A stretch of DNA of 64,000 nucleotides from Mesaphorura yosii (lineage: Eukaryota; Arthropoda; Collembola; Poduromorpha; Tullbergiidae). The stretch lies in contig WIXG01000115.1 in the NCBI GenBank assembly GCA_009869945.1, forward strand, positions 62,001-126,000, written 5' to 3'. Within the stretch, counting starts at the first letter, position 1, and every line of letters begins with the position of its first letter. Below are positions 859 through 62,500 of the stretch, piece after piece. A program made the translations under genes and the position numbers. The notes under the pieces are model-generated. The model was not told where the DNA came from, did no database searches, and saw nothing but the letters and a program-made list of their open reading frames with translations.

Positions 859-3800
859 ATGGGAAATCAGCTGGTCGCCTTTGCACCATCGCTGATACGT
901 CCCGTGGAATTCTACCTGACGGATGTCCCGGAGTATACCTTCGAATCTAAGTGAGTCTCGGAAAAATAGCTAGTCAAGTAGTCAAGTTGGAAATGACCTA
1001 ACAAATTCCTCTCTTTCCAGCTTGGGGTCCACAAGATTTCTCAAAGTGTGTCGCGCAAGACACAACAATCTGCTCTATGTCATCAAAGTATTTGTCATTC
1101 ATGAACACTCTGTACCGATACAAATCTACTGTGATAGACTACTACACTTGAGGAATTGTTTGAGCACATCGCCATCACCCAATTGCCTGCCCTTCATCAA
1201 GGCCAAGGTATGTCCAGTCCAGCGCCCTACATTTCTTTCGTGAACTGACTAACTAGCACTGATTGATGGTTGTTCATATTGCAGCCAACGGAAAGATCAG
1301 TGATTGTAGTTCGTCCGTACGTCAAATACTCATTGTACGATCGCATCTCAACCAGACCGTTTATTCAGTGGTCCGAGAAACTTTGGATAGCATTTCAGCT
1401 GCTTTATGGCTTGGTACAACTGCATAAGCACGGATTGTGCCACGGTGATCTGAAGTTGGAAAACATTCTAGTAACTCCCGGACTTCGATTACTTCTCTGT
1501 GATTTCGCTCCATTCAAGCCTGTGTACTTACCACGAAACAACCCGTCGGCAATATTTGGCTTCTTTTTCGATACTGCTGGAAGGAGATGTTGTTACGTTG
1601 CTCCAGAACGGTTTCACGATGACAAGAGTCGTGTGGGTGCCGACAATTTGCTGACTCAAGAAGATGAATTGAAGCATATTTTGCTACCGACGATGGACAT
1701 ATTCTCAGCTGGTTGTTGTTTGATTGAGTTACTAACCGAAGGGCGAGTTCCCTTTGATCTCTCGCAATTGCTCTCCTTTTGTGCGAAGGACTATGAACCA
1801 TCCGCCGTAATTGAGCAAATAGATGATGTGCATGCTCGAGAACTAGTCAGTCATATGATCCAGTATAACCCAGCGGACAGATTAAGTGCAGAGGAATACC
1901 TGACAAGATATCGAGGAAAATTATTTCCAGAAGTATTTTACTCCACACTTCAGTCATATTTTGATCTGCTGTCCTTTCTACCTTTGTACAAGCCAGATTC
2001 AAGAATGGTTCGATTATACGAAGATACAAAGTAAGTTAAACTTTTTCTTACAACTAATTGGCCAGATGAATTTATAATTTAACTAGGGCTGACTTTTCTT
2101 ATCTCCACAGGAGTTTACCCGATGAGCCAGCGATCAGCCTTATATTCACATCGTTAGTTACAGCCGAAATTCGTGGACTTCAGACAACCACAGCCAAACT
2201 ATTTGCCTTGGAATCGCTACGAAATCTTTCAGCAAATCTTACGGACGAAACAATACTTGAGCGTGTAATTCCATACGTTGTACACCTTCTGCTTGATGTG
2301 ACGTCACATCGTGTTCGTGCGGAAGCACTAACGACGCTGGTTGACTGCCTGGATCTGGTTCAAGAAGTTCCGACATCGGACTACAACATATTTTCTGGTT
2401 ACATCTATCCAGGATTGGAGAAGTTGGACCGTGACATCCTAGTTCGAGTATCATTGGCGAAAAACATTTCCCGAATTGCAAAGATATCCATGAGATATCT
2501 GGAGGCATCTTTCATAAACCATCCTACTGAACTTAGTCAACAGCAACAACTACAATTTCATACAGAATTTCAATCGCAAAGTGAAGCAATTGGAAACTTT
2601 CTGAGCAGTTTGCTCACGGATACGGATTCGGTTGTGAAACGCGTGCTAGTCTCAACTCCGGGTTCACTAGCAACATTGTGCACCTACTTCGGCCCTGGAA
2701 AGGCACACGATATACTTTTGTCGCATCTAATCACATTCCTAAATGACAAGGACGATATGCAGTTGAGGGTTGCATTTTTTAAATGTGTTCCAGCCGTCGC
2801 AGCATTCATTGGTTGGCACGCAGCGCCTTTACTGATTCCACTTTTAAAACAGGTAAATCCAACATTTAATTGCTATTTATGTGGATTGTCCGAGTAAAGC
2901 TTTCATTCTCTCTTCCAGGGTTTGTCAGATGTAGAAGAGTTTGTAATGCGTGAAGCACTCCTAACGATAAAATCATTGACGGAAATTAATTTCTTTGGTC
3001 GACGCTTCCTTCTTGATTTGCTGGACGAAGCACTTCCTTTTACAATACACCCAAACTTGTGGCTACGGAATGCTGCTGTTGGAGTAATCACTTCGATTAA
3101 GAATAACTTATCGCAAGTCGATATTTATTGCCACGTCATACCTCGACTGAAAGTGTACTTAAAAACTGCGTCGCATTCCATTTGGGGAGTCAATGAAGTA
3201 TCAATATTGAGTAAAGTGAAGCAGTACTTGGAAAGACAAGTTTACGAAAGCTGTGCTCGAGCGAGGGGCACACTTTTGACGTCGACAATTGACTTCCTTC
3301 AAAATAATGATGGCAAGGGCGACGATCCGGACTCAAACGAAGTTATTAATGTAAGCTGATCAAATTTTGGTGTGTAATGGCCTGATGGTTGAATTAATTT
3401 AATTTGATGAACGATTAATTCAATAGTTCCTGGCTCGACTACGAGCAGAAGGCCTCCCTCAACCTTTGGATCCCGTGTACACAGCGTTTTTGCAAAAACA
3501 TGTATTCAAAGTAAACTTACAACGAAGTCTCCGTCAAACCCCACTTGCAATTACAAGTTTAAATTCAAGTACTTCAATCGTTGGACCTTTACCGTACGCT
3601 GGAGTGAAAGGATCCACGCTTTCTTCCACGTACAGTCAGCCTAATATCCAAAGCCACATTTTAACTCTATCGACTCCACCAATTAAAGAAATCGGCTACA
3701 ACAATGGTTCGGGAAGTGAAGTGATTCTATCGTCGCAACAAGTCTATTCAACTTACGCTCAAGCCCTTGCAACTAATTACGCGAATCAGTACCAACAGCA

Positions 3801-5444
3801 ATCATTCACCGAGCGGCCTCGTGGGATCCTGGTTGCACATTTGCATGAGCATCGAAATGCCATTCTCAAACTATGTCCATTGACATCATTCAGAGGACTT
3901 TTCGCCTCGTGTTCAAGGGAGAATGTACGAATTTGGGATGCTGAAAAGATGGAAGGCCGAAATGTGGCCAACAGGTAGAAATCCAGTAGAATATGGCTCA
4001 CGTCGGCTTAATTAATAATTAAATGGCTTAATCAAGACCATTAATTGAAATTAGATCCCGATGTATTATTAAACTGCAAGGTGATGCTATTCTGACGAAC
4101 TTAGCGTATTCTGGGCCTTCAAACGTCATTGGAATTACCGACGACAAGGATTTACACGGATTTGCGTAAGTTGACAATTTCGCCCGCTCTGTCGCTGATT
4201 GCAGCTCAATTAATTTCATGCACCACGATTTTTTAGGCTAGAGAACTTAACCGCCAGACCTGTATTCACTGTCCCTATCAATAACAAGAAACAAGACGTT
4301 GGAATTCCGGTGGCACTGGAATCGTGCTCACCGAATATATTCATTCTTGGAACTGAATTTGGAGCGTTGGTTGGATATGACATGAGACTTAAAGATAAGG
4401 AGGTTTTCCGACTACAGTCAGATCTGAAATCAGGTGAGAGCAGCAGCATCATGAGCAGTTTAGATTTGCTCGCAAATTCGAGCATCTACTTGAACTACAA
4501 TTCTTTAACAGGACTGCTCACAGCTTTGACATCGGATGAAGACAAAAACTGGATGTGCACGGGGTCGTCAAAGGGCATTCTAACTTGCTGGGACTTAAGA
4601 TTTAGTATTCCTGTAAACACCATCAAAACAGATGCGTCAATTAGGAAAATGAAAACTTCTCCATTCCACTCTTCCGGAGTCTTTACCTCTTCAAGAATTC
4701 AGAACGAGGTGTCGTTGTGGAATTTGGAAACCGGTAATTTCAGTACATATTTTGATTGAAATGCGAAGACTTGACTATAGTTTCTTCGTTGGTTTCCTTT
4801 GTGGCAGGGAGCCGTGATCTTTGCTTATGGGCTAGTCAGTCACCTCCATTGAGTCAACCAAATCAGCCCTCCGCTTCTCAAGTTGGACCTCCTGCATCGC
4901 CGACATCTCCAACTGCGCCTTCAGCTGTGCACTCGATTATGGGAATCACATTTGTGAAGTCCCTGGGAGCAATCGTTACGGGAGGAACAGACATGTGCCT
5001 GAGATGGTGGGACAGAAATTCTCCGAGTGATTCTGTCATTCTAAGTTACAAGGGTATGTGTTTGTTTAATGTGGACCCGTGTGAGTCTTAAGTTGGTTGG
5101 TCTATTAAAGTGTATTTTCGTTTATAGAAAAAGCAGAAATGCAAATAACCGGAATGCAACGAAACAGCGAGTTCAGGTTTCGGCTCGTGGATGGTGTTGA
5201 GGTGATTCATGACGTCAGTAACGCTGGACGTCCAAGTTCCTCGGCGATCGGTAGCGGTTCCGGTGCTGGCAGGCAACGCTCAAGTGACAGTGCCAGCGGA
5301 ATGCCAAATTCCTCCAACTCTGGAACGTCTGTTATGGGAAACTCACATCATAACTCCATCACAGACGTGACAACTGTATCAACTCCAAACCAGAGCTTTA
5401 TTTTAACCAGTTCATCAGATGGTGTTATAAAAGTGTGGAAATAA
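859..5444 (+). CDS. Vps15: Vps15 / PIK3R4, pseudokinase regulatory subunit of class III PI3-kinase
   Basis: Ten exons join in frame to about 1,305 residues: 859-950, 1021-1207, 1285-2030, 2111-2852, 2919-3350, 3427-3974, 4055-4165, 4237-4733, 4808-5053 and 5128-5444. Human PIK3R4 is about 1,358 residues. The product scaffolds Vps34 and Beclin-1 on endosomal and autophagic membranes. The start MGNQL is the family's N-myristoylation signal. The kinase-like domain has HGDLK (D148) instead of HRD and DFA (D166) instead of DFG, both typical of Vps15. A HEAT-type helical middle follows, with the phrase LRNAAVG near the end of exon 5. A WD40 propeller ends in DGVIKVWK, almost as in vertebrates. Exon 8 to 9 is spliced across 4734-4807, rejoining LETG to SRDLCLWAS as in the human protein. 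The stop is TAA. Family identity is very secure; individual splice sites were placed by eye. Confidence 0.95.
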
Positions 5445-18045: not shown

Positions 18046-21000
18046 ATGGAGTTTCTCAAAACTGTGCTGGGGTCTGGTCAGGGCACCGGTGTTCCTGGAA
18101 AAGGTGCTCAAAATCAGTCTGGCGCTGAAACGGTAAGCTCTCGACTCTGTATGTTATACTCTCGAGCAGATCTGTGACGGATTTTGATGTTCTCATTTCG
18201 TCCAGGTGGAACGACTCGTGGAACGATTGCAGACGTCAACTCTGTTAGAAGATCGCCGAGACGCCTGTCGAGCCCTTAGATCCCTGTCACGTAAATACCG
18301 CGTGGAGGTCGGAGCACAGGGAATGGATTCCGTGCTGCACATCCTGTCCATAGATAGAATGGATTCGGAGATTGTGACGTACTGCGTGGAAATCTTGCTA
18401 AACATTACTTCGCCAACGCTTTTAGACGATGAAGATGAGAGCGTGAAGGATGTTGGCAAGCAGTTCACAGAAATATTTACAAAAAAGAGCGACAACATTA
18501 CCATTCTTCTTTCACTGCTCGACGAATACGACTTCCGCATACGTCTTCCACTAATTAAGCTGTTAACAAATTTACTAACCAACCATCCGAAGGAAATGCA
18601 AGACACACTGCTGATAAGTCCGATGGGCACTTCCAAGTTGATGGATTTGCTAAGTGATACAAGAGAAGTTATCCGGAACGATGTAAGAATGCACACGGAA
18701 TAGCTTTCTCGGAATGCCTAGCTAATGCAAAACACTATGAAGCTTCTTTTGACTTTGATTTACAGGCGATACTTATGCTCAGTGCTCTTACGAAGAACAA
18801 CTCCAACATACAGAAAATAATAGCATTTGAGAATGGGTTTGATAAAATCCTGACAATTATCCACGAAGAGGGCCATTCGGATGGTGGACCCGTGGTCGAA
18901 GACTGTCTGAATTTATTTTTGAGCCTTCTGAGAAATAACACCAGCAATCAGACCATTTTTAGAGAAGGAAATTATGTGAAGAGGATTCTACCATTTTTCC
19001 AAGTACTAAATGATCAATCGCCTTCTGCGCCAGATGCAGACCAGCAAGGGTGGGCAACGCAAAAAGTGTCAAATTTCTACCACATGCTTCAAGTTGTTCG
19101 GACACTCGTATCGCCATTGAATCCTGCTCAAGTAACGCTTAACTGCCAGAGAGTGATGAAGACGTCCGGAGTTTTAGAGTCGTTATGCAATTTATTAATG
19201 GCCAGTGGCATTCCGGTTGAGACCTTAACTGAAGTTATCATCACTGTGGGAGAGTTGATGCGAGGTTCAATCGAAAATCAAGACTACTTCTTTTCCTTGG
19301 TTGCACCGTCCGAACCTCCAAGACCTGCACTTGTCATCTTGCTAATGTCACTAGTAAACGACGCACAATTACTGAGCCTACGCTGTGCGGTTCACTACTG
19401 TGTAAATTGCTATTTGTACAAGAACGAAAAGGGCCAGAGCGACGTAGTGAAGTCCCTCTTGCCAAATTCGACGAGTGCGAAAGGTAGTAAGCCTAAGTCT
19501 CGATAAAAATTGAGATTATTCACTTCTTCCTATGTTCTGTTTATTCCAGCTGGCGTTGTGACGGCTGGTCAGCTAATTTGCAGTGGCCTTTTTAGCAAAG
19601 ACATTTCCACGAACTGGTTTTCTTCAATATCTCTTGGACATGCGTTGCTCAATAATACCTCCCAAAAGGAATTGCTGTTGAAAGTGAAGCTGGCCACGCG
19701 AGCCGAAACACCAGCAGTAACCTTAATTCATCATATTCTGAGCACGCTAAACGCAGTGAGTGCCGCACCTTGAACGAATTCACAAATTATCGTGCTTAAA
19801 TTGTACAATATGAACTTGTCAAGCGTCCATTATTGTTTTCAGAATCCAAAAGTGCAGGTCAAATTATCCTCGCTGCAATTTCTGGCAATTTGGCTGGAGT
19901 CATGTCCAGGCGCCGTTGCACAGTTTTTAAGTAATCAACTCGCCATTCAGTACTTGATTTCACAGGTAACGAAACCGAGTAATAAATGCCGGGTGAGATT
20001 TTTCTGGTTTAATAAAAAGATTTGTCTGACAGGTTACAACAGCGGACATGATCGATAAAGAGGCTTTGGTAAATGGTCTTTGTGCGTTCGTTATGGGACT
20101 TTGTTTTTATTTTAACCCGAATACCGTCGAATCTTTTAACAAGGTAAGGTTATTGCTACCTACTTTAGGTATAAAATTCTTCTAAAATGGAGCGAACTGT
20201 TTTGCAGGAAAACTTGCATCAGCTCATGACAAATCGCATTGGAGTGGAACAAGTAACAAATGGGTTAAGCCAAATAACAAAGTCTGAGTATTACTTGCAT
20301 GCGCTCAAGCATCCACAAGTCAACGCCAGACATTCAACTGATCTTGTGTTTGACCATCATTTCGCTTTGCTCTTCAAGAAATATGAGCCCCTGATTCTAA
20401 TGCAGTTAAATAGCGAAACCACAACAGTTAACAATCCCACCGCACAAGATCAGAACTCCGCCAACGATTTATCTGCAAATGGGTACAAAGTAACGACGAG
20501 GGAATCGCCGAACGCCGTCATCGATCAGTACAAAGCATTTATCAGAAGTCAAGACGAAGCAATCGAAAGTTACAAGAAAGAAATCGGTGCACTGGTGAAA
20601 CTAAACGCGGACTACAAAGTACGAATTTCGAGTTAAAATTAAGAACTTGTTTTTCTGAGTGTCACATTCGTTCTGTAAATTATAGGGAAGACTAGAAGAA
20701 ATGTTCGGAGAAGTATTACAACTTAAGAGTCAGTTGACGCTGGTCCAAGCGCAACGGGAAGCAAATGGTGCTAGCAAACGCCAAATTCTGGAAGACGAGC
20801 ACTTGACCATTGTCGAAGCCAAGGATAAAAGAATTGAAGAATTGGTAAGAATGCCTTGATTCAAAACACCAATTAAGACGAGGAACAACCTTTTATACTA
20901 TATTTTGTCTTGCAGCAACTTCAAGTATTGAAACTGGAAAGCCACTACGGTAGCATGGCACCGGTTAAGAACCCTATACAGGAAGAATTAATTGCAAAGC

Positions 21001-21666
21001 TTGAAGAAGAAAATAAGGAGCTTGTGGAGGAGGTCGAGAGAACAAAAAAGGATCAAGAAGAATTGTTGGAGTTGTTGGCGGAACAAGACAAAAGAATTTC
21101 TGACTACAAGATTCAATTGCGCCAATTTGGAGTTCAGGTAAAGTCCACTTTAACTGACTGGCGTATTAAACCGAGGCTTTCGAGCGTAATTCATTCGAGT
21201 CTCTTTAACGATTCAGATTCCATTGGATGAAGATGAAGAATTCAACAACGCTGGTACAACTGCTGCAACTGGTGCCACAAATCTTGATGGTCCAATAAGT
21301 AGCGATGCCGGAAACGCGCCAGTTCTTGTTACTGATGAGAAAGTCACATACTTGGAGCAATTAAGTCAAAGCCAAAACCACGAGCATCAGCCACACTGTG
21401 AAACAAATCCTTTCGGCCTCTACCAGCATCCAAACCATCAATATGAAAGTGCCCATGGTCATCAAAAGCATCACGAGCCGCCACCATCGCATGAGAATGA
21501 ATACCAATCACACCAGCTTGAGGCGCTGACCGCGGTGAATGTGAATCCGTTCCAATTTCACCAACATTCTCATCTAGAGCAAGATCATGAGCAAGAAAAC
21601 GGACTTTTGATGGCTTCCCACGCGTTTTCGAATGCCGGATATGGCGGCTCGGATTTCCTGCTTTAA
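18046..21666 (+). CDS. USO1: General vesicular transport factor USO1/p115
   Basis: Ten exons: 18046-18132, 18206-18682, 18766-19483, 19550-19755, 19843-19965, 20033-20143, 20208-20618, 20686-20844, 20916-21137 and 21217-21666. They encode about 987 residues; human USO1 is 962. p115 is a dimeric golgin-like tether that docks COPII/COPI vesicles at the Golgi with GM130, Rab1 and SNAREs. The N-terminal head carries armadillo-like repeats, seen in VERLVERLQTSTLLEDRRDA and RLPLIKLLTNLLTNHPKEM. A coiled coil runs from about residue 680 to 838, including EELIAKLEEENKELVEEVER. A short acidic motif, PLDEDEEF, follows at 840-847. The last exon then adds an unusual His/Gln-rich tail with two NPF tripeptides (902-904 and 948-950), not typical of the family. 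The first ATG is used; it matches the short family N-terminus (MEFLKTVLG). Confidence 0.95.
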
Positions 21667-22309
21667 ATTGAGTCAACGACAATGGAAGCATTCGGCTATT
21701 GAACGGTAGGAATCGTGGAGATGGCTTTTACGAATGGTAAAGTTTTTAGTAAGATTATTTATTCTTCTATGATTGTAAAACGCACTTTCATGTAACTAAG
21801 CTCCAGACTGTAATTGTAATTAATAACTGTGATCGGGATCTAGGATTGAAGAAATGTATTTATTCAAGTCGTATAAAGTAGTATTTATATTTACAGAACG
21901 CCATACAATTTAGTCACGATTCCAAATATGCAATTGCAACTTCCAATAATTTTTAATTACCTCTAATAAATGAATTTACTTTTATGCATGAATTTACAAT
22001 GAATTTTACACTTAAGCTCGATTCTACATTTTGATTCAGACTTCAGACAATGCTCAACAAAAGTAAAGTATGCCCGTGCCCCGAAATCGCTTAACTTACA
22101 TAAACAACAATGATTAAATACTTATGATGGCAGTAATTGAACTAACATGAACTATGAAACAAAAGCGTTTGGCCATAAAAATTACATAAACATCATGATA
22201 ACTTTAACTTAATAATAATTATAATACTTGAACATGACCAATGCTGAAGAGAAGAAGGCTAAAATACACAGTTCTGAATCGGCACGAACATCAGAGGAAT
22301 GTGGCGTGG
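21667..22309. terminator. Overlapping convergent 3' ends of USO1 and the claudin-like gene
   Basis: A plus-strand AATAAA lies at 21965-21970 for USO1. Minus-strand AATAAA elements lie at 21859-21864 and 21758-21763 for the claudin-like gene. If these are used, the two mRNAs overlap in antisense by at least about 100 bases. The stretch is AT-rich and has no ORF. Confidence 0.45.
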
Positions 22310-23695
22310 CTACATGGACGACTCTGTAAACCCGCCCGGGCTCCCTCCACCGCCTCCTCGAGTGACGGTCCGTGCCTTCGTGTACGAAGTCTCTGTTTTC
22401 TGCTTTTTTTGCATGATGATTTTGACTGCAACCGGTTGATGCGAGACGAGAATATCTTCGAAATCTGAACTTGTCATTGGCTTAGTGGTGGTGGCTGAAG
22501 CCATGGAAGAAGAAGCCACCGGAGGAGGTGATTCCTTTTCAGGACATGGCGCTGCTGCAATTGCAATCGGTATCTTTGTACCTTCTCCTGCTGCAGGTGC
22601 AGAAGCCGGCTTCAATTTCTTCAACTTGATCCCTCGTGATGGTCGTGGGATTATCTCTTGCGTCTGCTCCGTAATCATGACCACGTCATGTGCACTTTCT
22701 TCGTGCGTGATCGTCTCACCTCTACTGGGTGGCAAACTCGGTGGAGGAGCAGTAGGTCTGAATTTTGGCGATGAAGCTGACGGCGATTCGATTCTCGGAG
22801 ATTCCCTGCCTTTTGCTGCCGGAGGCTGACTTAAAAGTATGGTCTTTGATGTTTCACGCATTTTTGCTGGAGAAATGTAAAGTTCATCGTCCTTGTTATT
22901 GTTGTCGTCTGCAGTGTCAGTGAAAAATTTCCTTCTTGGGGAACGCGGGCTGGATTGCAGTGTTGGGTACTCAGTTATGGCTAATTTTTCTGGAAAAGTA
23001 GGCGAATAGTCCGATTGAGAAGCTGGGCGCTGGTATCTGCTTGCCATTGGCGAATAGTCTCTGGCGGATGATCCCAGAGCAGAATCTCGTGGAGATCCTT
23101 CCGGCGAACTGGGTGACACGCTCAACGGACTCGAGTCATACTGGGGACTTACCCGATCTCTCGGTTCCAGATAGTTGAATCCACCGTACGGAATGTACGG
23201 TCTACGCTTTGGTGAAGTCGTGATTGTGTCCTTGTACTCTTTGTACGTCGTAGTCTCTGTTGTGTCCGTCGTGGTTGTTTTCTTCTTCGATGGTAGAGGA
23301 AGCTGTGTGGACGGAGTGGAAGTTGTGACGGGTTTCGTTGGGATTTTCTTTGACGATGAGAATTGCTTGAATAATTTGGCGCTCATTAGTTGCTCGCTTT
23401 CAGCGATAGGCGATGGCAGTTCTTCCGTCGGAGATGGCAAGGGTGATATCATTTCTTCGAGTTGCTTGGCATTCAGCTGGAGCCCTGCATCAGATTTGAG
23501 AGGCTGATCAGAATCTTTTCTGCGGCCATTTACGAATCGTGTGAGCTGTGACTTGAATGGCACGATGCTCCTGGGATACCATCTTCCGTTTTCGGGTCGC
23601 GTGATGGTGGTCGGCGGTTTACGAGGCGATGATGGGACTGCCGCTGCTTCGGTCTCTTTCTCCGAAGCAATGGTAGTTCCATCACCGGCTGATTG
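22310..23695 (-). CDS. 461-codon in-frame extension downstream of the claudin-like stop codon (readthrough candidate)
   Basis: Immediately after the TGA at 23698-23696, the same frame in the same exon stays open for 461 sense codons to a TAG at 22312-22310. It starts QSAGDGTTIASEKETEAAAV and ends GGGGGSPGGFTESSM. Composition is rich in Ser, Pro, Thr and Lys with many SP and SPRR-like sites, for example VSPQYDSSPLSVSPSSPEGS. No folded domain or membrane span is visible, so it looks like a disordered cytoplasmic tail with phosphorylation-type sites. The stop context is TGA-C, the leakiest context described in animals. With uniform codons, 461 open codons by chance has probability near 1e-10, so the stretch is almost surely translated somehow. 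An exon reached by alternative splicing past the stop is the main alternative. No strong internal acceptor with a pyrimidine tract was seen. Confidence 0.65.
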   Translation of the reverse strand, partial: QSAGDGTTIASEKETEAAAVPSSPRKPPTTITRPENGRWYPRSIVPFKSQLTRFVNGRRKDSDQPLKSDAGLQLNAKQLEEMISPLPSPTEELPSPIAESEQLMSAKLFKQFSSSKKIPTKPVTTSTPSTQLPLPSKKKTTTTDTTETTTYKEYKDTITTSPKRRPYIPYGGFNYLEPRDRVSPQYDSSPLSVSPSSPEGSPRDSALGSSARDYSPMASRYQRPASQSDYSPTFPEKLAITEYPTLQSSPRSPRRKFFTDTADDNNNKDDELYISPAKMRETSKTILLSQPPAAKGRESPRIESPSASSPKFRPTAPPPSLPPSRGETITHEESAHDVVMITEQTQEIIPRPSRGIKLKKLKPASAPAAGEGTKIPIAIAAAPCPEKESPPPVASSSMASATTTKPMTSSDFEDILVSHQPVAVKIIMQKKQKTETSYTKARTVTRGGGGGSPGGFTESSM

Positions 23696-24926
23696 TCATG
23701 GTTGCTTAACGATGGGCTCGTCCATGTATGAAGGTTGGCTCACGTGGTAGATTCCCATTTGATTACGCTCCTTCCTGGTTTTCCACTGGCGGAGTCCTTC
23801 AATGAGGAACAGAATTCCGGCCAGATGAAGCAGAACTACGCCGACTACGGCAACCACAAAAGCCCACGAGAGGTAGTTATTCACCCAGGTTTCGGCCCAA
23901 GTGCGGCTACCGCTCAAAGACCCAAATACAATGACGGCAACTTCACCAACCAACGCTGAAAAAGGCCGGCAATCGAAAAATTTCCTCAATAAATACAATT
24001 GACATAGAACACGAGTTGACTTGACCTGCATATGATTGTTCTAACCTGCCATGTTCATGAGCATTCCAAGCGCAATCAGGAAATGAATCAGTCCCTCATC
24101 CCGGCTGCTAAACTTGACCAGATACGTCAGCACGAGTATCAGACAAATTACGCATCCTCCAAAACAAAGTGTATAGCAGATTTGAACGGGGACAATGAAA
24201 CCTGCAAGCGCGAAGTTGAGTATAATTAGAGTCAAAATTCAAGGTCATGACTAACGAGATGCGAGGTGATGAGTTCAGTCTATTTTGGTGGTGTTGGGTA
24301 CAAATTCCATAAACAGGAATGCAATTAAGTTACGGTTATGAGTTATGACTGTTGACTCACTCACAATATTTTAGAAAGCATCGATGAATCATCAAATTCA
24401 TAATCCACATCACACCGCGCAATTAGCACTAATTAAATCAAATCTCTGTCAATGAGTACCCGAACTGACTCAAACTTGGGCGACTCGTGTACTTTGAAAC
24501 ATTTCAAGACGATGAATCAGCGTGGAGCTGCGTCTTTGATGGCCGATACTGTGGGACGCCATTTCAGGCGTGTGAAATTGCAATTAACTCACCCGGCAGC
24601 AGATATTCCTTGAGGTCGTAGAACGAAGCCACCACGGGGTAATAAATCCAGCGGCAGCCCTGGTATCCGTTTGTCAGATAAGGGTCGTAGTAGTACGGGT
24701 CATGCAGGTCGTTGTAGCAGCTCATCCAGAGACCAAGCTTCTGAAATTTTGTTCTGGATGGCTTGGTAGCATCGTTCACGGCGAGCCAATCGGGCGAGAC
24801 GAAAGAGACGATGATAAGGAGAAAGGCAGCGAAGAAAATGACGCACGCGAGGTGACCTGTGATCAGACGTCCACCACACGCGGGGCTCGAGCCCGTTGAA
24901 CGAGACGAGTGCGATCCGGAGTCCAT
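23696..24926 (-). CDS. Claudin/PMP22-family four-transmembrane protein
   Basis: Three coding exons (24926-24593, 24201-24046, 23955-23696), all joined in phase 1, give 249 residues. The topology is four membrane spans: about 24-42, 113-140, 148-174 and 191-217. The first extracellular loop carries the claudin signature: W47, then GLW (65-67), C70 and C91. Arthropod claudin-like proteins act in septate junctions or as glial/epithelial membrane organisers. The short cytoplasmic tail ends in PIVKQP before TGA. The start was set at the ATG at 24926 (MDSGSHSS). The frame upstream has no ATG before a stop at 25001-24999, and two leader exons are proposed further up. The closest named insect homologue could not be decided. 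The stop is followed by a long in-frame extension, listed separately. Confidence 0.85.
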
Positions 24927-26026
24927 TCTGAGAATCGGTGCGACGTACGAGGGCCTCCAGTCAATTCGCGAATCACATTGCAATGGCACGCTTTGACGCT
25001 ACGACAGGCACTGGTGACCTTCTGAACCACCGCACTGGGCGTCTGAGCTTGCCAACTTGGTAGGAAAGGAAACGATTTGGAAATGCAGAACAAGCAGGGG
25101 ACAAATTAGGCAAGACTCGCAAGAGGTGCGCCAGCACAAAAGCTAATACGAGATTTAACTAAGGACCAAGCAATGAAGCAGAATGAGAATTGAGACGAGG
25201 GCCACGCAATCCGCGATGCAATGCATCACCGTTCTTAATGTAGATTTAATGGTTGTATGGTTGTTTGTTGGTAATGGTTGTAAACCCACTTAAGATCGCA
25301 GCGCAAGAAGAAAAGAAAGAGTAGGCAAAGGCAAAGGCAAATTCAATGCGGTGAGGTACCAGAAATTTCATCACATACACCGTCCGTGCTCCGTGCGGCC
25401 GTACTAATGTGGCATATTAAAATTCAGCAGTTACATTGTAGCTAGTAGTTAACCAACTTTAGCATCATTCAGCAAGTCTTCGTGAGCCTCCTGCAAAGCA
25501 ATTGCAATCTGCTAAGGAAAGAATGACTCATGCGCTAAAAACGTATTTGTTGTTGACTGTTGGTTTAATATGCAAGAGCAAGAAGTAGACAGGACATTCT
25601 ATTTTCTAGCACAATTAGCGCCAATTTACACCTTCCGAGGAAAGAAGGTCTTGGTCTGAATCCGCGAGCCACGAGCCAGGTACCAGCGTACCGATGAACG
25701 GGTTAGGAAACTTAATAAGAGAGACTAACCAGAAGCAGCGCACAGGAAATGAGACTACACATTTTGAACAATGCGTAAATATTTGGAACAATGGGTAATA
25801 TCAGATTACGAGAAGAAGGAAAGACGAAAGAATTAGAACGAGAACGGGTATGATTTGGTTTGGCATTTGCATTGGGATTTGCACCCGTCAATTCATTTGC
25901 CCACCCAGCTGCCTGGAATTAAAGTGTGAACTGTGAACCAATGCAAATGAGGCATGTGTTAATACGATACCGATACAATGCTTTAAGCCTACCTGTCCTG
26001 AAACAATTGCACATACCAAGACTCAC
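24927..26026 (-). other. Probable leader intron of the claudin-like gene
   Basis: About 1.1 kb without a supportable ORF. It lies between the claudin-like start codon and the proposed leader exons. A pyrimidine-rich acceptor (CAAGCTCAG) near 25045 could begin the untranslated part of the coding exon. Confidence 0.3.
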
Positions 26027-33200: not shown

Positions 33201-34874
33201 CACTACGACTTACATGGAGATGCCACGAGGTGCGTATCGAGATTCGGGTCGCCACCTATACCTCGATACACATCTCGTAGCATCTCCTTGTTAGACTAGA
33301 GTTAGCAGAGCCCAGCGAGTGCAGAGTTTCAAAAGTTAATGCCAGAGCAGCCTTTTAGAAAGCACGACACATGAAACATGTCCAGGGAAAGGCACAGACA
33401 CTGGACATTCATAATTGTAATTGGATTACTGTCACCGGCCACGTCCGCCCACCTTTGGTGGCATTTCTTACATTCTTACTTTCAGTTCGGTGGTCAATGT
33501 CAAAGGATGTTTCATCAACTTTTTAACAACTATTTGAGATTTACGCGTGATAGTGTTGCCGATGTATGGGAAAGTTTTTGTTCTTGCCCTTTGTGGACAA
33601 ACAAGGAATTATTGCATGTAGATAATGGAAAAGTAATAACGTCAGACGCGGACGTCGGGAAAGTTCAAGTTCAGGGTCCACGAGCATCCAGAATTACGTT
33701 GCACCGCACTGCGAACATTGTCATGTGTAGTGCAGTGCAGTGCATGTTCATGTCCAAAGAACATAAGATGCTCACGTAATATCTTAATGCTCACTTTTAT
33801 GACCAAATTTCTTTATACCAGCCAACCAGCGCTTGTCGGTCGTGGTTTAGTAAACCAAACTGTGCACATAACTCGAATTTCGAGTACAAGAGCAACTCAG
33901 AAGCGCGAATTCCAGCTCCTGAGAAAAATAATCTTATAAATTGCATTACGCATTGGCATTTCCTGTGCAAGGCGAGGACCACGTACGATGCAACGAAGCG
34001 ATGAATGAGGAAGATTTGGTTTTGCAGTGTAAATTCTCATTTGATGCGAAATTTAGTACAGAAATATCGCCAGTCGCCGGAAGGCATTTAAATAAATGCA
34101 AAACTGTGGTAGTCAACACCAGAAAGGCATCCGCCATAAACTAATTCCCGAAATGCATGTGTTTGAATGTAAAATAGGAAAATAGCCAATAAGCGTGGGA
34201 GAAAGCATGAAGCAGTGTAACGAGATTGCATTTATGGTAAAATGAAACGTGCAACGTGCTAGCTTCCTGTAGAAAATTCTTGAAGTTTATCAGACATTAT
34301 TTTTGATTACTCATAAAGTTTCTATTCCTTAAACTCGCGTAAACTACTTACAGGCAAAGCTGAGAACTGCGAGTAAAAGTAAAAGTACAACACATAAGAT
34401 TCATGAAACGAAGAGAATGTTGAATGGGCTAATAATACGCTTCGTAAAGTAGTAAACAACGACACTTCAAGACTCGACGGAGACTCACAGTCAGACTCAT
34501 GAAATGGTTCATTTGTCCGTGCAAGGCAGTGATAATCATCTAAATAAATTACTTCAACCATTTTTACTGCTTCAAGCAGCTACTTTATGGACAAATGGAC
34601 ATTTAAGGACCAGGATTGTTTACGGACTCCGTTTGGTGAGGATAGCGGAGAAAGCATAAAATCGCGTTCGAGGCTATTACTAAAGTTTATGATACATAAA
34701 CATCGGTCAGCGTGGTAGTAAATAAAATCTCAATTCTCGAACAAGAACTGACAAGGCGCGCAAAAGACAAACCACACCCGAGTTAATAAATCGGTTAGTA
34801 AATTGTGAATTCTACCAAACCAAACATCACATCACGGCAAATCTTGGCACACGAAACACGAGCTCTCGACTTAC
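30252..34874 (-). other. Intron shared by both forms of the alternative-first-exon gene
   Basis: This 4.6 kb intron is bounded by C/GTAAGT and TTGCAG. It holds the 33.2 kb hairpin. No coding exon was recognised on either strand; open frames are short and without domains. Confidence 0.45.
33212..33291 (-). ncRNA. Strong hairpin, candidate microRNA or hairpin-RNA precursor
   Basis: Bases 33216-33241 pair with 33262-33287: 26 positions, with 23 Watson-Crick pairs and three C-A/G-T positions, around a 20-base loop. A further 3 bp (33212-33214 with 33289-33291) pair beyond one T-T mismatch. Read on the minus strand, two of the three imperfect positions become G-U wobbles, so the minus transcript folds better. 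That is the strand of the intron in which it lies. Size and shape suit a pre-miRNA. The arm sequences match no microRNA I know. A small inverted-repeat element is the alternative. Confidence 0.4.
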
Positions 34875-36258
34875 GCTGTTCATCAATCGACCCTGAATTA
34901 TGTAATGAAAGAACAACAAAGAAGATCGCCAGCAGCAGCAACAGTGTAGAGACCAACATGATGGCGTACGCTACTTTGCGGTGCCTGCGTTCTTTCGGTG
35001 GAAGATCCTTCAAAGGCACATCCTTCAACGATCCCGGATCCATGCTGAACGCGAAACTGTTTGATCGACATGTTCTGTAGTATGACGAACGCAGTGGCTC
35101 CGAGCCACTGCTAGCACAACCGCCTGCAGAGTGAGTCGACCCTCCGACAGTCTTCCGCAGCCTTTTTACACGCGGACGGGGACTGCTTGCTTGGTCATCA
35201 GAACCCGAGCCAGAATTGAGTGCACTGGACGATCCACCACCACCGCCATGTAGCCTGCTTCCACTTCTGTTGCTCTTAATTGAAGATGGACGACTGCGAG
35301 GAATACTCAAGTGGGATGACGCAACACTCACACGACCGCTGGTGACACTCATTTGGCGTTTAAATTGGTACAAATCTTTAACAGTGTCGCCGCCTCCGTC
35401 ACCGCCGACGTTGTACATTTCACTGGCCGAAGGTGTAGCGGTCGGGGATAATCGACCAATGCCAGCGTACGAAAACGGTTTGTAAGGTGTGATGCTGGAC
35501 ACTTCTGCAGATGCTCGGCGGGCTTGGAGAGGATTCTGATCAGGTGACCCTGTCATTGAATTCTTGGCAGACGGTGAGTGATCGGAACGGAGTGACTGAC
35601 TGCGCGGGAGGGCTTGACTAATTGTGACTGGTGACGGTGACGGAGTTGACAAGTCTGATGTATCGCCACGAACAAGAGGATTGAGGTTAGTGTTGGCGAA
35701 TTTCAGAGGCGGAGGACGGACTTTGCCTTGCCTTGTATATTCACTGCCTGATTTATAAGGGGATGACCTACGACTATGATGATTTGCGTGTTTATTTGAT
35801 GTAGAGGACCCTGGATGAGCCTGGAGTTGAACGAAATCTTCCATCTCTGCCACTTCAATTCTATCATCATCGTCCTGGCTCGGGCTCCTCTTCTGCTTTG
35901 TCGTACTGGTCGTGCTCTTGGCCGCTTGCTGGAGTTCATCTCCTCGAATCGAGTAGCCATAGCCAGTAGAATTCCCTGGAGTGTTCTTCTCGTTTTCGCT
36001 TTCTTCCTTCTTCATATTATTATTGCAACTACTTTCAGCAGTTGTTATATTGGCATTCATTTCCTTATCTGCACGGTCAATGCTTTTGCTGCTGCCTCGC
36101 GCTAAGGCTTCAATGGCTCGGTCCTCAACCAAGTCCAAATCCAAATCATCGTCGTCTTCTGGCTCGGCCAGCCTTGCCCGTCCTCGAACCAGTGAACCGT
36201 CTCCCGAAGCAGGATGATCTTGATCTCGTTTGCCAGCAGTAGTCGAAATCATTTTCAT
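34875..36258 (-). CDS. Alternative first coding exon A: Ser/Pro-rich cytoplasmic region plus membrane span
   Basis: The ATG at 36258 opens 461 codons ending at a phase-1 donor (GAACAGC/GTAAGT). Joined to the exon at 30251 it gives a 716-residue protein; the junction codon is Leu. The first ~420 residues are low complexity, with acidic, Ser/Pro and Gly runs such as HGGGGGSSSALNSGSGSDD. A basic stretch KERRHRK immediately precedes one membrane span of about residues 430-452 (IMLVSTLLLLLAIFFVVL). Positive-inside logic puts the N-terminus in the cytosol. After the span, HNSGSIDEQ leads into the shared exon. The ORF length and the precise donor argue strongly that it is coding. The function is unknown. 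Confidence 0.65.
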
Positions 36259-56550: not shown

Positions 56551-59500
56551 TTAATTTTACTGATGCGCCATAATTTAATGCCGTAAATGGTAACAATTTG
56601 TGATGTTCGAGCCAAACGTCTTTGATATATCAGTATTTTGTACATGTTCGTTCATTCGTTTGTTCAAATATGAATATTTCTATACTTTTCGTATATTCAT
56701 ATTCAAACACTGTTGCAATACAAGTGCAATATTTATACTCAGAAACCTCTCTCTCAACTCCCCACTGCACCATAATCATCGTGATAATAAATTGAACTTT
56801 CTCGCTCGGGCTCGGTGGCAGTCTCGGTTGCGCCATTAAATCAGTTTGTTTACTCCACGCGCGCGAGCCCGTCCACCATGCATCAAATTATGATACGGAA
56901 CAATAAGCTTTAAAATTCGGTCTCGTTCTTTTCCAGTGAACTGAATTCGATGGCCGACAAAGGAAAAAGCTTACTTTAACACTGCAGATTTAGGATGTCA
57001 AGTGTGAATTCTATTGGAAAATGTTTGGAATGAAATACGAAACAAGAGAAAGTTTAATACCGTCAACTCTTTCAAATTCAGATTGCATTCAGTTTGCCAC
57101 ATTGTAGGAAATGGGCTATCGCTACATTCGAAGAGCAGAGCAGAGCAGCAATTGAATTCGAGTCGAGAATCTAGACAAAGTGATACAAATGTTTTTGCAA
57201 ACCACCTCAGATTACGAGCAAGCAGTAGGCTCAATCGACCAGTATGCTGCCGTATTTGCAGTTTTACGAGTTTCGCATTGAGCTTATTTGCATATTTATA
57301 TTTTTATTGCCCACAAGAACAAATACAAATATACGCCATTAAATATAATTCGCAAACTTTCCAACTCCAACAACTTGACTTGCCTCGTATTTGCATTCAG
57401 CTTGACTGGAGACTGGAAATACATCAAAGCACCGGCCTAGCCTTAATTCCGTATTACAAATGGGGCTTTATTCTCAAATGGTAAATGGGTAAATCTAATA
57501 AAGCCTTATATTTCGCTTGAGTGTAACATAGATTGCAGTCCCAGGCACTTGAGCTGAGCCCACTTTCCATTTCCCTACATTGGATGCAGGCTTTTACTTC
57601 CGCATTCGCATTCACGTAGAGCTTTCGCTCAAGAGAGCATTTTAAAAGAATTTTCCGGTACAAAAAAGTGTTTTGTATTCTTCCAGTTCCCGTTTTCTTT
57701 TGCAAAAATACTTCGCAACAACAAACACGCACACGGCAAGGTACAACAACCCACACAGTTGCTGTTACGTGTCTGAATTCACTAAAATCCGACAAGACTT
57801 TAAAGCTACCGCTGCCGTTGTTGTACTTTGTGCTTTCTAAATGGACGGTTTCTAAATGTGGAAAATTTATGCCCGACATTTCTTAACATCCTTCTTCTGG
57901 TATCTGGTTACTTGTGTGGAGAATTCTAGGACAAAGTCGGAGTCTAGTCAGTGAGTCGTTCTTACTTTAAAGTCTATAAATAAATGAGTGACTTGGTTTG
58001 TGTCAGTTTAATCGGCGCACTGAACAAAAACACGTGCTGATATTAAAAACAAAAGAAGAACCCGAGCCAGAGTAATTTAATTTAGGAGAAAGTTTGGCTC
58101 AACTCAGAATAAACGCAAGTACGGGCTTCTGTTCCAGCGAAACAGAATTCGTCTTGGGGTTTCGATGCCCTTCACGGTTGTCGCGTAGATAGCAAATGAA
58201 TTTGATGAACTGTGTGTATTGTGCATTGGTTCTGACAAAACAAGCGACTGGATTTTACACAATCTTAAATCACATAGTTAATTAACCTCTCAAATGCAGG
58301 AATGAGCTGCTTCTTTCACGTCTTTGTTTACAAAACTGTAAACCAGGCGCGCTTTGATTTGTTTTAACTACATCAAACGAAAACTTAACATCTCAACACG
58401 GTTTCACATTGCTTACTGAGTATTGTACTTTTTGAAACTTAAGAAAAGAAAGTAAATGCAGCGTCGTTTCCACCAAAGAAATTCCGCGCCCACAAAGGAG
58501 ACCAAAGAACAAAATCGCGAAGAGGCTCTCCATATTTCATATTTTATTAAAAATTTCTGCAGTGCAGGGTGCACTTTCTTCTTATTTCTTAAGAGAATTC
58601 CACACCGAAATGCTTCAAAAGCTTCACACTGCAGACTGAGCAAAGCTTTGCGAGTTTCGAGTGCAGGAAGAAATTAATTCATTCCCGTTAATTTTTTGCT
58701 CCATTCGCTTTATGTTTAAATAAATCTTGCGCTGCGTGCTTGTTATTTGAATAAAGAAATCTCATTAATGAAAGGCAAAGGAGTTGTTCATTTGGTCTCT
58801 CCATACCCGCCGTGCACTGTAGTTCTAGGGGCTTGTGCCTTGCGAAATGAACAAATTACAGTCTCGCTTGCCGTCGTCGCCCTTTGAAAGTTTGCCCTGC
58901 TCTTGCGTCTCGCCTATGCTGCCCTACTGCAATTGATGCATGGTCTGATGAGTTCGGCGCTCGCGCTCGTAATTACAATATTTACATAGCATGCATTTTT
59001 ATGTGCTGCTGTACTGTTGCAACAAACTCAAGAGAATGATGAATAATGAGCTGCCTTTCTTTCGTACATTTTATTTGCCTCGTTTTGTGCCTGTACTGTG
59101 TTGAGACTGCTTCTAATTTCTGCAGTCGTTCAATCCCAAAAATAACAGCTCGTTTGCAAGAACATTCATCAAAATTCAATGACCCCTTTTACCGACGACG
59201 GATTCGTTTATACCAAACGCACACCACGCGTGCATTGAAACACCATTTCTCTGGCTCATGGTAGCAAGACCAAGTCTGCAGCCCTCGAATTGAAATATCG
59301 TCAACGGACCTCCACTTCAAACTTATATTAATCTTATTAACCATCTGCGTATGATGACAAAAGGAACTGAGAAGAAACGGGACGAAGCTTGGCTGACAAT
59401 TATTGATTCGCTGGATTTCAGTTTTTGCTTTATACTCGAACTGACTATACAATTTCGACAATTTGACACGGTTTAACGCGAAAAACAAACATGACCCAAT

Positions 59501-62500
59501 ACCAAAACTAAAACTAATACCGACACTTACATGCCTACAGCAAAGAAAGCCTGCCTGTAGCTGGCCGCATTGTTTACACGGCTTTTCTCTGGTTAAACAG
59601 GCGGTTAGCGACTGGCTTGTAAAAACCAATGCGCCGAGTGCCAGTGATTTCGAGGTTAAAAATCAAAAACTTCACTAACGATAATCCTGGGCAGGCCCAG
59701 GTTCGTACGTAATTCCAAAGAATGTTCATTTCTTGCGGAAATGAGAAAGTTTAGCGTTTAACGTTCAGCCTTCGCCTGACCGAGCGTACACACTACACAC
59801 GTGTTCAGAGGTGAATTTAAATGAGTCCCTTGTTCACACTTGCCAATGCCATCCCTTTACTCTTACATTCGCAATTCCCTGTCATTATCATTCTTTGTAT
59901 AAAATCCTCTCACTCTCGTCTCACGCTAAAGACAACAATGCAATGGAAGAGAAGAGTGGAGCTGTATAGCTCGATGGCCGTGACAATGGTATAATAGCCA
60001 AAGTCAGCTCAAAGTCGATTCCGGCATACATTCTCAATGTTGCAATAGCAATGGCATTCAAGTGCTCGGAAATGGCTCTCTTCAGTCACGTTAAATTGCC
60101 GACGATTTAACCCCGTACAAAGCACATTCGGGTACAGTATAAATGATTCCAAGTATTAATCCCGAGTAAATAAAGTAATTCAACTGCAAAATATGTACGC
60201 ACTGTCGCAGGCAGCGGGAATTGACGCAATGAAGCAATCAGCTTCATCCGGGATTATTTTCATTTTTATTATTACTGCGACAGTCATCAATACTGCAGCT
60301 GCAACGGTTCCATAGTCCATAGCAGTGTCAAAAGCGTATCATAAAAGAGGACGACACTGAAACGCATTGCAATGAAATGGCTGAAAGACTTCAAAATCCG
60401 AATTCAAATTCAATACAAGGCAGCCAGTTTATCTCTACATTTCATCAAAAGAAATTCCCTCAAAGAAAGGATTACAGCGCGGACATGTTCGAGTTCGAGT
60501 GGAAGGACCGTTCCGTTGTTTTCAACTTGAAATTGAAGCTCCAATCCAGTAGTTATGAAACAAAGAATGTCGCCGTTCCCGCTTTATATTAATGAATTCA
60601 GTATTGTATTACTTTTAATCAAGCACTGGTTCATTCAAAGTACAAAACACAGAATAGAAGAAATTGTTTAAAAGTCCTTCTTTACAATTCCAGCCAGAGG
60701 AAAGGAACGACGCAAAGATTTTGTTTTAATCAAAACCCTCTCACGTATTGACTTAAAAATCAATACACCGCATTCAGCATTTGTTTTTTGGGCGTAAAAT
60801 CTGAAGTCTGGAAAGTCTGAAAAATGAGCATTAAATGAAAATCCATTTCAAGTATGAAGTTCTTAAGACTTTCACTGCCGACACGATGGGTTCAGGGAGA
60901 AGCCAAAAGCCAAAAGCAATGTACGGTCTGGAAGAAGTTTCATTAACACTTGAGATTTTAGAGTTTTGATAAGAAGTAAGAAAAAATTCGTTCGCACGTA
61001 CGCATCTGTTTGCCCTGCTCGGCTCGGCCTGCACGCTGCACCACACGAACACATTGATCTCGAACCAAACAAACCCACCGCCGAACGTAAAATAAAGATA
61101 TTTATGATCTCATAAATGTTACACTTGGGAGTTTTTAGTACCATTGCCTTCGCCTTGCCTTTCTTCTGCCAGCAGCACAGCCCAGCCCAGTTTGCCAATG
61201 TGTATTATACGGTAGTAAATTGGTAATAAGAAAAATCGGAAAGAAAATCAAAGAGAATGGAAGAAATGGAATGTGTCATGAGAAATGTGTGCTCGCGTCT
61301 GATATTACTTGAGGGAAAGCTTAACTTGTCCTGTCCATAATGGAATTCAGGTCAACGATGTCGATTTGGGTTTCCAGACGGAAGGAGAAATAGAAAGCAG
61401 CAAGGCGAATGCGAAGACAAAGTCAAATCCAATACGATTCCATATGCTCATAGGCGCTTTGCTGCAGAGAAGAGGTTTAACCTTTGACTACTTGAGTGGT
61501 AATGTGGAATTCATCATTTCACACATGCGAAACGAGGCATGGGCCTCATTTCGCGAGTCAACCGTCGTATGCGGCCACGATTTTCCAGCTCCAACATTTA
61601 TTATCATGACTTTAATTCAATGGCTTGGCTCGGTTTGGCGTGCCACGCTGGCCTACCCTTTTGTCTTATTCGCTTGAAAAATGTTTCGAACCTCGTACTC
61701 CTACATAATTTATTTCCTGAACCGTGCTCAGCTGAGTGGACCGAGCCATGCCACATACTAGTTCATATGGAGCGAAGGCTGAATTAATTGAAAAAGAAGC
61801 AGCAGTAGCCGTCGCAACCCGCCGAGGTGGTGGCAAACTGGTAAAATGAAGAAACCTAAATTAAAAATGATGACTCTAACCTTCCCCAATCATTTGTCAT
61901 TGGCGAGGCGATGCTGGGAGGAAATCCTAAGCACATTAGCCAGTAGCCAATGGTATTGTGTATTGATTTTTGCAGTCAGGTTTAGGAGAGTATGACTGGA
62001 CTGGACGACTGGAGTCTGGTGCCAAAACGTGTATTTTTCAATATGTGCGTTAAGAGAGTTAAGAGAACGGACTTGCACGGTCATTTTTCTTTTCCTTTTC
62101 CTGTGTCCAAACACTACACTTCAGAGCGTTGAACAAAACCAGTCAACTTAAGAAATAAATGGTTCCGGAAATACAAGATTAATAGCAATCCAGGCCTTCT
62201 TCGAAGCTTCTCGGCTCAATTTTGGATTCCCTCAATTATGAGACTGCTTGCTTCTTCAACGTCATTTGCTGATAAATACGTTTGCTCCATATAGTCAATA
62301 CAAGAAAAAGCTCGGCAGCCGTGCAGTTTGCAGTTCGCAACCTCATAATTTGACATTGAACTTGAATCCATCGTTTCAATCAAACCAAGTACAAAGTCAG
62401 CGGGCCGTATTTCAACCGCAGTGCAGCACAGAAACAACGAAAACGCCCAACTTGGCTTGACTTTCAAAGTCTATCTTTGTCTCCAACATTTATAGCCATC

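Follow-up and report, generated by a model that had tools for sequence, protein, structure and literature searches.

The window analysed here, i.e., the entire 64,000-nucleotide stretch of DNA at positions 62001-126000 of contig C115, carries on its minus strand a three-exon gene (exon borders placed by eye, Table 1) whose spliced open reading frame, ORF1, encodes a protein of 249 amino acids. Against the PMP22/EMP/MP20/Claudin family (PF13903), this product scores 85.8 bits (E=4.3e-24) relative to a curated cut-off of 29.1, and its first extracellular loop harbors the residues W...GLW..C...C, which we take to be the claudin-family pattern for that loop. Among solved structures the nearest chain, that of the calcium channel gamma-1 subunit, matches weakly (E=0.011). 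What sets the gene apart from the PF13903 family is a possible tail of 461 residues past an in-frame stop.

The 3' end of the coding part of exon 3 reads CAA-CCA-TGA-CAA-TCA (V-K-Q-P-stop), and the frame then runs on through 461 sense codons before it is closed by a TAG. A first-pass annotation of this DNA had described a claudin-like gene with a TGA-C stop followed by 461 in-frame sense codons; translation of the exons and the TAG at 22312-22310 bear this out, as does TGA-CAATCA for the UGA-then-C context to which it had pointed. Its figure of 711 residues for the claudin product with a recoded stop likewise agrees with the 249 residues of ORF1 and the 461-codon extension.

Table 1. Features of the claudin gene and its 3' side, in positions of the window.
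Feature	Positions	Strand	Details
Claudin exon 1	24593..24926	-	ATG at 24926; ends in phase 1; donor GTGAGT
Claudin exon 2	24046..24201	-	translated in the spliced product
Claudin exon 3, coding part up to the TGA	23699..23955	-	C-terminal ...VKQP
TGA, candidate leaky stop	23696..23698	-	read from sequence and translation
CAATCA hexamer, fits CARYYA	23690..23695	-	motif as described in PMC4132726
Predicted RNA hairpin, 25 pairs	23624..23690	-	folding
Extension of 461 codons, Ser/Pro/Thr/Lys-rich	22313..23695	-	open frame, codon score, Pfam
TAG closing the extended protein	22310..22312	-	sequence; C-terminus ...TESSM
Region with two AATAAA, 3' of the TAG	21758..21864	-	starts at 21864 and 21763

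Coding potential of the extension

The 64-kb window has 169 stop-to-stop frames of 80 codons or more, of which the 461-codon run is the second longest. The longest (34795-36258, minus strand) comprises 487 codons, has one hydrophobic stretch near its end as judged by eye, and gave no Pfam match at E <= 0.01. How probable it is that 461 codons remain open by chance depends on the background chosen. With the stop frequency seen in the +1 and +2 frames of this stretch, which contain 15 and 17 stops, the probability is 8e-8; with that of the window minus strand it is 3e-10, and with that of the sequence just beyond the TAG 2e-14. Pooling all frames of the stretch gives 2e-5, a conservative value in which the open frame itself is counted. 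Taken over all frames, stops occur at 0.023 per triplet in the extension stretch and at 0.046 in the window minus strand. We also measured the open run following ten hand-picked ORF-closing stops, obtaining 461 codons for the claudin, 82 for a paralogue on C142 described below, and 1, 3, 4, 5, 9, 11, 14 and 27 codons for the eight others, some of which may be stops that end an exon frame within an intron. A search of the extension against the 93.0-Mb assembly (1127 contigs) returned a single match at E <= 0.001, namely itself, and the extension therefore does not look like a repeat.

A codon-composition score was trained on 3093 codons from 16 further long ORFs in the window, chosen by length and resemblance without annotation, with the extension kept out. 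In frame, the extension scores 0.116 bits/codon, ranking fifth among the 169 ORFs counted above, many of which were themselves in the training set, and the score is above zero in all six of its pieces (76-77 codons each). In the same stretch the +1 and +2 frames score negative and one antisense frame is weakly positive (0.056 bits/codon); ORF1, in which membrane residues are abundant, scores -0.002. The score reflects mostly residue make-up. Ser, Pro, Thr and Lys abound in the extension, in line with the Ser/Pro-rich tail predicted earlier. A synonymous-only codon score lends the tail frame no support (2.6 bits, with 10.4 for the +1 frame), a measure that has little power since ORF1 itself gains only 7.6 bits over 249 codons; when the tail protein was back-translated 2000 times with synonymous codons drawn at background frequencies, 36 of the sequences scored as well as the extension. 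The 461-residue tail yielded no Pfam match at E <= 1.

A scan for 12 poly(A)-like hexamer variants found none between the TGA and the TAG, and the mRNA thus probably covers the extension; the first such hexamer 3' of the TAG lies at 21986, followed by the two AATAAA listed in Table 1. On the plus strand, a gene at 18188-21666 converges on the claudin gene, leaving about 640 bases between the final stops, and the 3' UTRs of the two genes may overlap. This gene resembles that of the vesicle tethering factor USO1/p115; the Pfam matches of its product are to other helical-repeat families, are weak, and fall short of the respective cut-offs. Elsewhere in the window, exons at 1267-4759 (plus strand) resemble those of the kinase/HEAT/WD protein PIK3R4/VPS15, their first ORF matching the protein kinase domain with E 2.5e-16. 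In the assembly as a whole, the odorant-binding family PF01395 has four matches (C21, C653, C7 and C872; best E 1.8e-5), and a search for COX1 found no match. PF02949 gave none either, a negative that does not establish absence because that profile had no hit anywhere. Among single-domain arginine kinases of the PDB, the arginine kinase exons of the genome agree best with chain 4bg4 (shrimp), at 620 bits compared with 566 for 1m15 (Limulus), although two-domain entries reach higher totals; in viral contigs this kinase had no relative. The kinase and PF01395 matches point to an arthropod and lean towards Pancrustacea.

Sequence context and predicted structure at the stop codon

The claudin stop reads UGA-CAAUCA, in agreement with the UGA-CARYYA readthrough context. 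CARYYA is the hexamer described as important for extension in tobacco mosaic virus, and its placement 3' of UGA in an OPRL1 reporter is reported to give about 15% readthrough, the native CUAG motif giving more (PMC4132726). Counting TGA triplets on both strands of the window and of up to nine further loci of the same assembly, 12 of 4160 are followed by CARYYA, and both claudin stops, that of the present gene and that of the C142 paralogue, are among the 12. Seven such places fall within the window, and the frames of the other six then stay open for 7-28 codons.

Folding predicts an RNA hairpin directly 3' of the stop. Its helices, of 2, 9, 3, 2 and 9 pairs, are interrupted by 1x1 mismatches and capped by a loop of 9 nt; the first of the 9-bp helices begins 8 nt 3' of the UGA. 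For the 119 nt starting at the UGA the predicted energy is -39.4 kcal/mol, a value reached by none of 200 shuffles (mean -25.8, sd 3.4; z -3.99), and the 100 nt that directly follow the stop have a z of -4.84 when 1000 shuffles are used. Scanning the gene from 25000 to 22000 with a 100-nt window at 291 places, each compared with 60 shuffles, gave the three lowest z values (-5.16, -5.11 and -4.83) in windows over the stop and its 3' side. Control windows from both strands of the 64 kb (n=800) had a lowest z of -4.29, with one at or below -3.99; two of the 800 reached -36.7 kcal/mol or lower, so that a fold of this raw energy also occurs elsewhere in the 64 kb. The native energy was reached by 5 of 2000 synonymous codon resamplings, by 3 of 2000 synonymous permutations within the 33-codon segment and by 2 of 2000 codon-order shuffles. 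Because protein-preserving shuffles rarely match it, the predicted hairpin depends on local codon choice beyond the encoded residues. In three longer folding contexts the basal pairs shift and the core helices are kept in all three.

Comparable elements have been described in Drosophila, where dfr has a stem-loop at +10 to +58 (PMC13170385) and the stem-loop of headcase is reported to be both necessary and sufficient (PMC8417969). A stem-loop by itself proves little, since among the 1012 Drosophila genes reported to satisfy stem-loop criteria within 60 nt after the stop, only 50 are given as candidates also by conservation or ribosome profiling (PMC13170385).

Claudin paralogues in the genome

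Searching the same genome with the claudin revealed a relative on C142 with 43% identity over residues 158-234; its hand-assembled protein is 36% identical to the claudin in the part before the stop. Exon 3 of this paralogue ends AAA-GCC-TGA-CAA-CTA, so that CARYYA again follows the TGA, and the frame continues for 82 open codons to a TAA. The chance of such a run is 0.2-2% at intron, 3'-flank and window stop rates, and 15% if the sparse stops of the first claudin's extension are taken as background. The C142 extension is Pro-rich and matches nothing in the genome except itself. Between the two tails no recognisable similarity was found, only short Pro-rich matches (best E 1.4), and folding found no hairpin at the C142 stop (z 0.13). 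The C142 locus contains two tandem sets of claudin-type 5' exons (approximately 58136-58443 and 60220-60601), both ending in phase 1 as judged by eye, and a single set of downstream exons (approximately 60777 and 61327 on), which bears the TGA-CAACTA stop. Either one gene has alternative 5' exons here, or a gene has been partly duplicated.

Three further claudin-family loci, C808, C613 and C1120, have stops lacking CARYYA that are followed by 5, 9 and 1 open codons, respectively, and an additional weak family match lies on C174 (E 0.036). The candidate leaky-stop arrangement is thus present in at most two of the five claudin-family loci examined. The first-pass annotation had proposed a comparison of orthologues; none of seven pattern matches in viral contigs (claudin as query) and none of 21 in genome contigs (alignment of the two paralogues as query) is a relative, and an orthologue was not found in the contigs searched.

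Discussion

We propose that the claudin UGA is read through at some rate, giving rise to a 249-residue and a 711-residue form, with the leak set by CARYYA and the hairpin; we put the probability of this explanation at roughly 85%. Readthrough had already been named as the lead route to the long protein, and that choice is strengthened by the CARYYA hexamer, the hairpin at the stop and the similar arrangement on C142, three lines of evidence that were not used in picking the finding. They are also our reason for favouring readthrough over sequencing error, strain mutation or splicing. Judging from the sequence, ribosomes probably pass the UGA and add the 461-residue tail on some molecules. A near-cognate tRNA would decode the UGA at some rate, a rate that would be set by UGA-CARYYA and, in the first claudin gene, by the hairpin starting at the stop, which, if it forms in the cell, would meet the ribosome while the UGA sits in the A site. 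Extrapolating from reporter values, perhaps 5-20% of the molecules would carry the tail. In the PMP22/claudin family the C-terminus lies inside the cell, and the Ser/Pro-rich tail of the long form would therefore be cytoplasmic. The tail looks disordered and may be phosphorylated; that it binds a scaffold is a guess. Joined to cytoplasmic partners, such a tail could connect the claudin to them in a dosed fashion.

The alternative that survives best, although it is unlikely, is alternative splicing: an intron with its donor in exon 3 and its acceptor within the open stretch would remove the TGA and yield a long form without recoding. A candidate donor, CAC/GTGAGC at 23743, lies 45 nt 5' of the TGA and agrees with the consensus at 7 of 9 positions, and a second at 23884 (6 of 9) is compatible with the same five in-frame acceptors, whose AGs at 23661, 23349, 23304, 23286 and 22482 are preceded by 10-12 pyrimidines in 15 nucleotides, a count on which the two real acceptors of the claudin gene score 10 and 11. 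Splice-like matches of this kind are common, however, with 109 AG sites in the open stretch, and splicing leaves unexplained why the frame is open from the TGA to the acceptor, as well as CARYYA, the hairpin and the C142 arrangement.

Less probable still is that a 711-residue claudin has lost a sense codon, whether through a sequencing error, a strain-specific nonsense change or decay of the gene. The stop is known as a single copy in a single assembly, as such an event would have it, but a random nonsense change is not expected to fall on CARYYA with a hairpin directly 3', nor to be mirrored past the conserved part of a paralogue where CARYYA occurs too. The low stop rate in all frames of the stretch would suit a separate coding unit with its own promoter or internal start, or a 3' UTR left open by chance where stops are few. 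We regard both as very improbable given the in-frame continuity from the TGA, CARYYA, the hairpin and the paralogue, and given that after eight other stops the frame stays open for only 1-27 codons. Decoding of the UGA as selenocysteine, which the predicted 3' hairpin might bring to mind, is the least credible reading, as a selenocysteine element is absent among the three Rfam matches (E up to 5) in 21500-25000 and claudins are not known to have a redox role that would need the residue.

Readthrough of the claudin UGA would have close precedents. As proposed here for the claudin, headcase and dfr/vvl in Drosophila combine a leaky stop, a close 3' hairpin and a C-terminal extension in the same frame; they differ in not being claudins, the dfr stop being given as UAG-C, whereas the claudin, a candidate for readthrough, has UGA with the full CARYYA plus a predicted hairpin. 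With the tobacco mosaic virus type both claudin paralogues share CARYYA directly 3' of the stop, and they depart from it in being cellular claudin-family genes, one of them with an additional predicted hairpin. FlyBase is reported to have listed 328 annotated readthrough genes in 2015, with extensions of 4 to more than 1000 residues (PMC4528330), and a 2016 study describes readthrough as abundant in most insects tested and in the crustacean Daphnia pulex, and, by its account, in no species tested outside Pancrustacea (PMC5100048). Since readthrough is, by these accounts, common in insects and a crustacean, the mechanism is already known. As to the target, no readthrough claudin appeared among the matches listed in a search of titles and the starts of abstracts. 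To that extent a claudin as a readthrough target, in two paralogues, is new, and a precedent in flies may exist.

More tentatively, and with the balance tipping slightly against it, the leaky UGA-CARYYA may be a shared ancestral switch of a branch of the claudins, in which the tails have diverged while termination sets the ratio of tailed to tail-less protein and with it the anchoring of junctions. At one locus, the combination of CARYYA with a 3' hairpin would provide a compact natural test of how two cis signals add. Claudin-type proteins seal epithelia, and many are linked to the cytoskeleton via their tails. If the claudin UGA is indeed read through, the structure of the barrier would depend on the efficiency of translation termination, perhaps in two genes at once.
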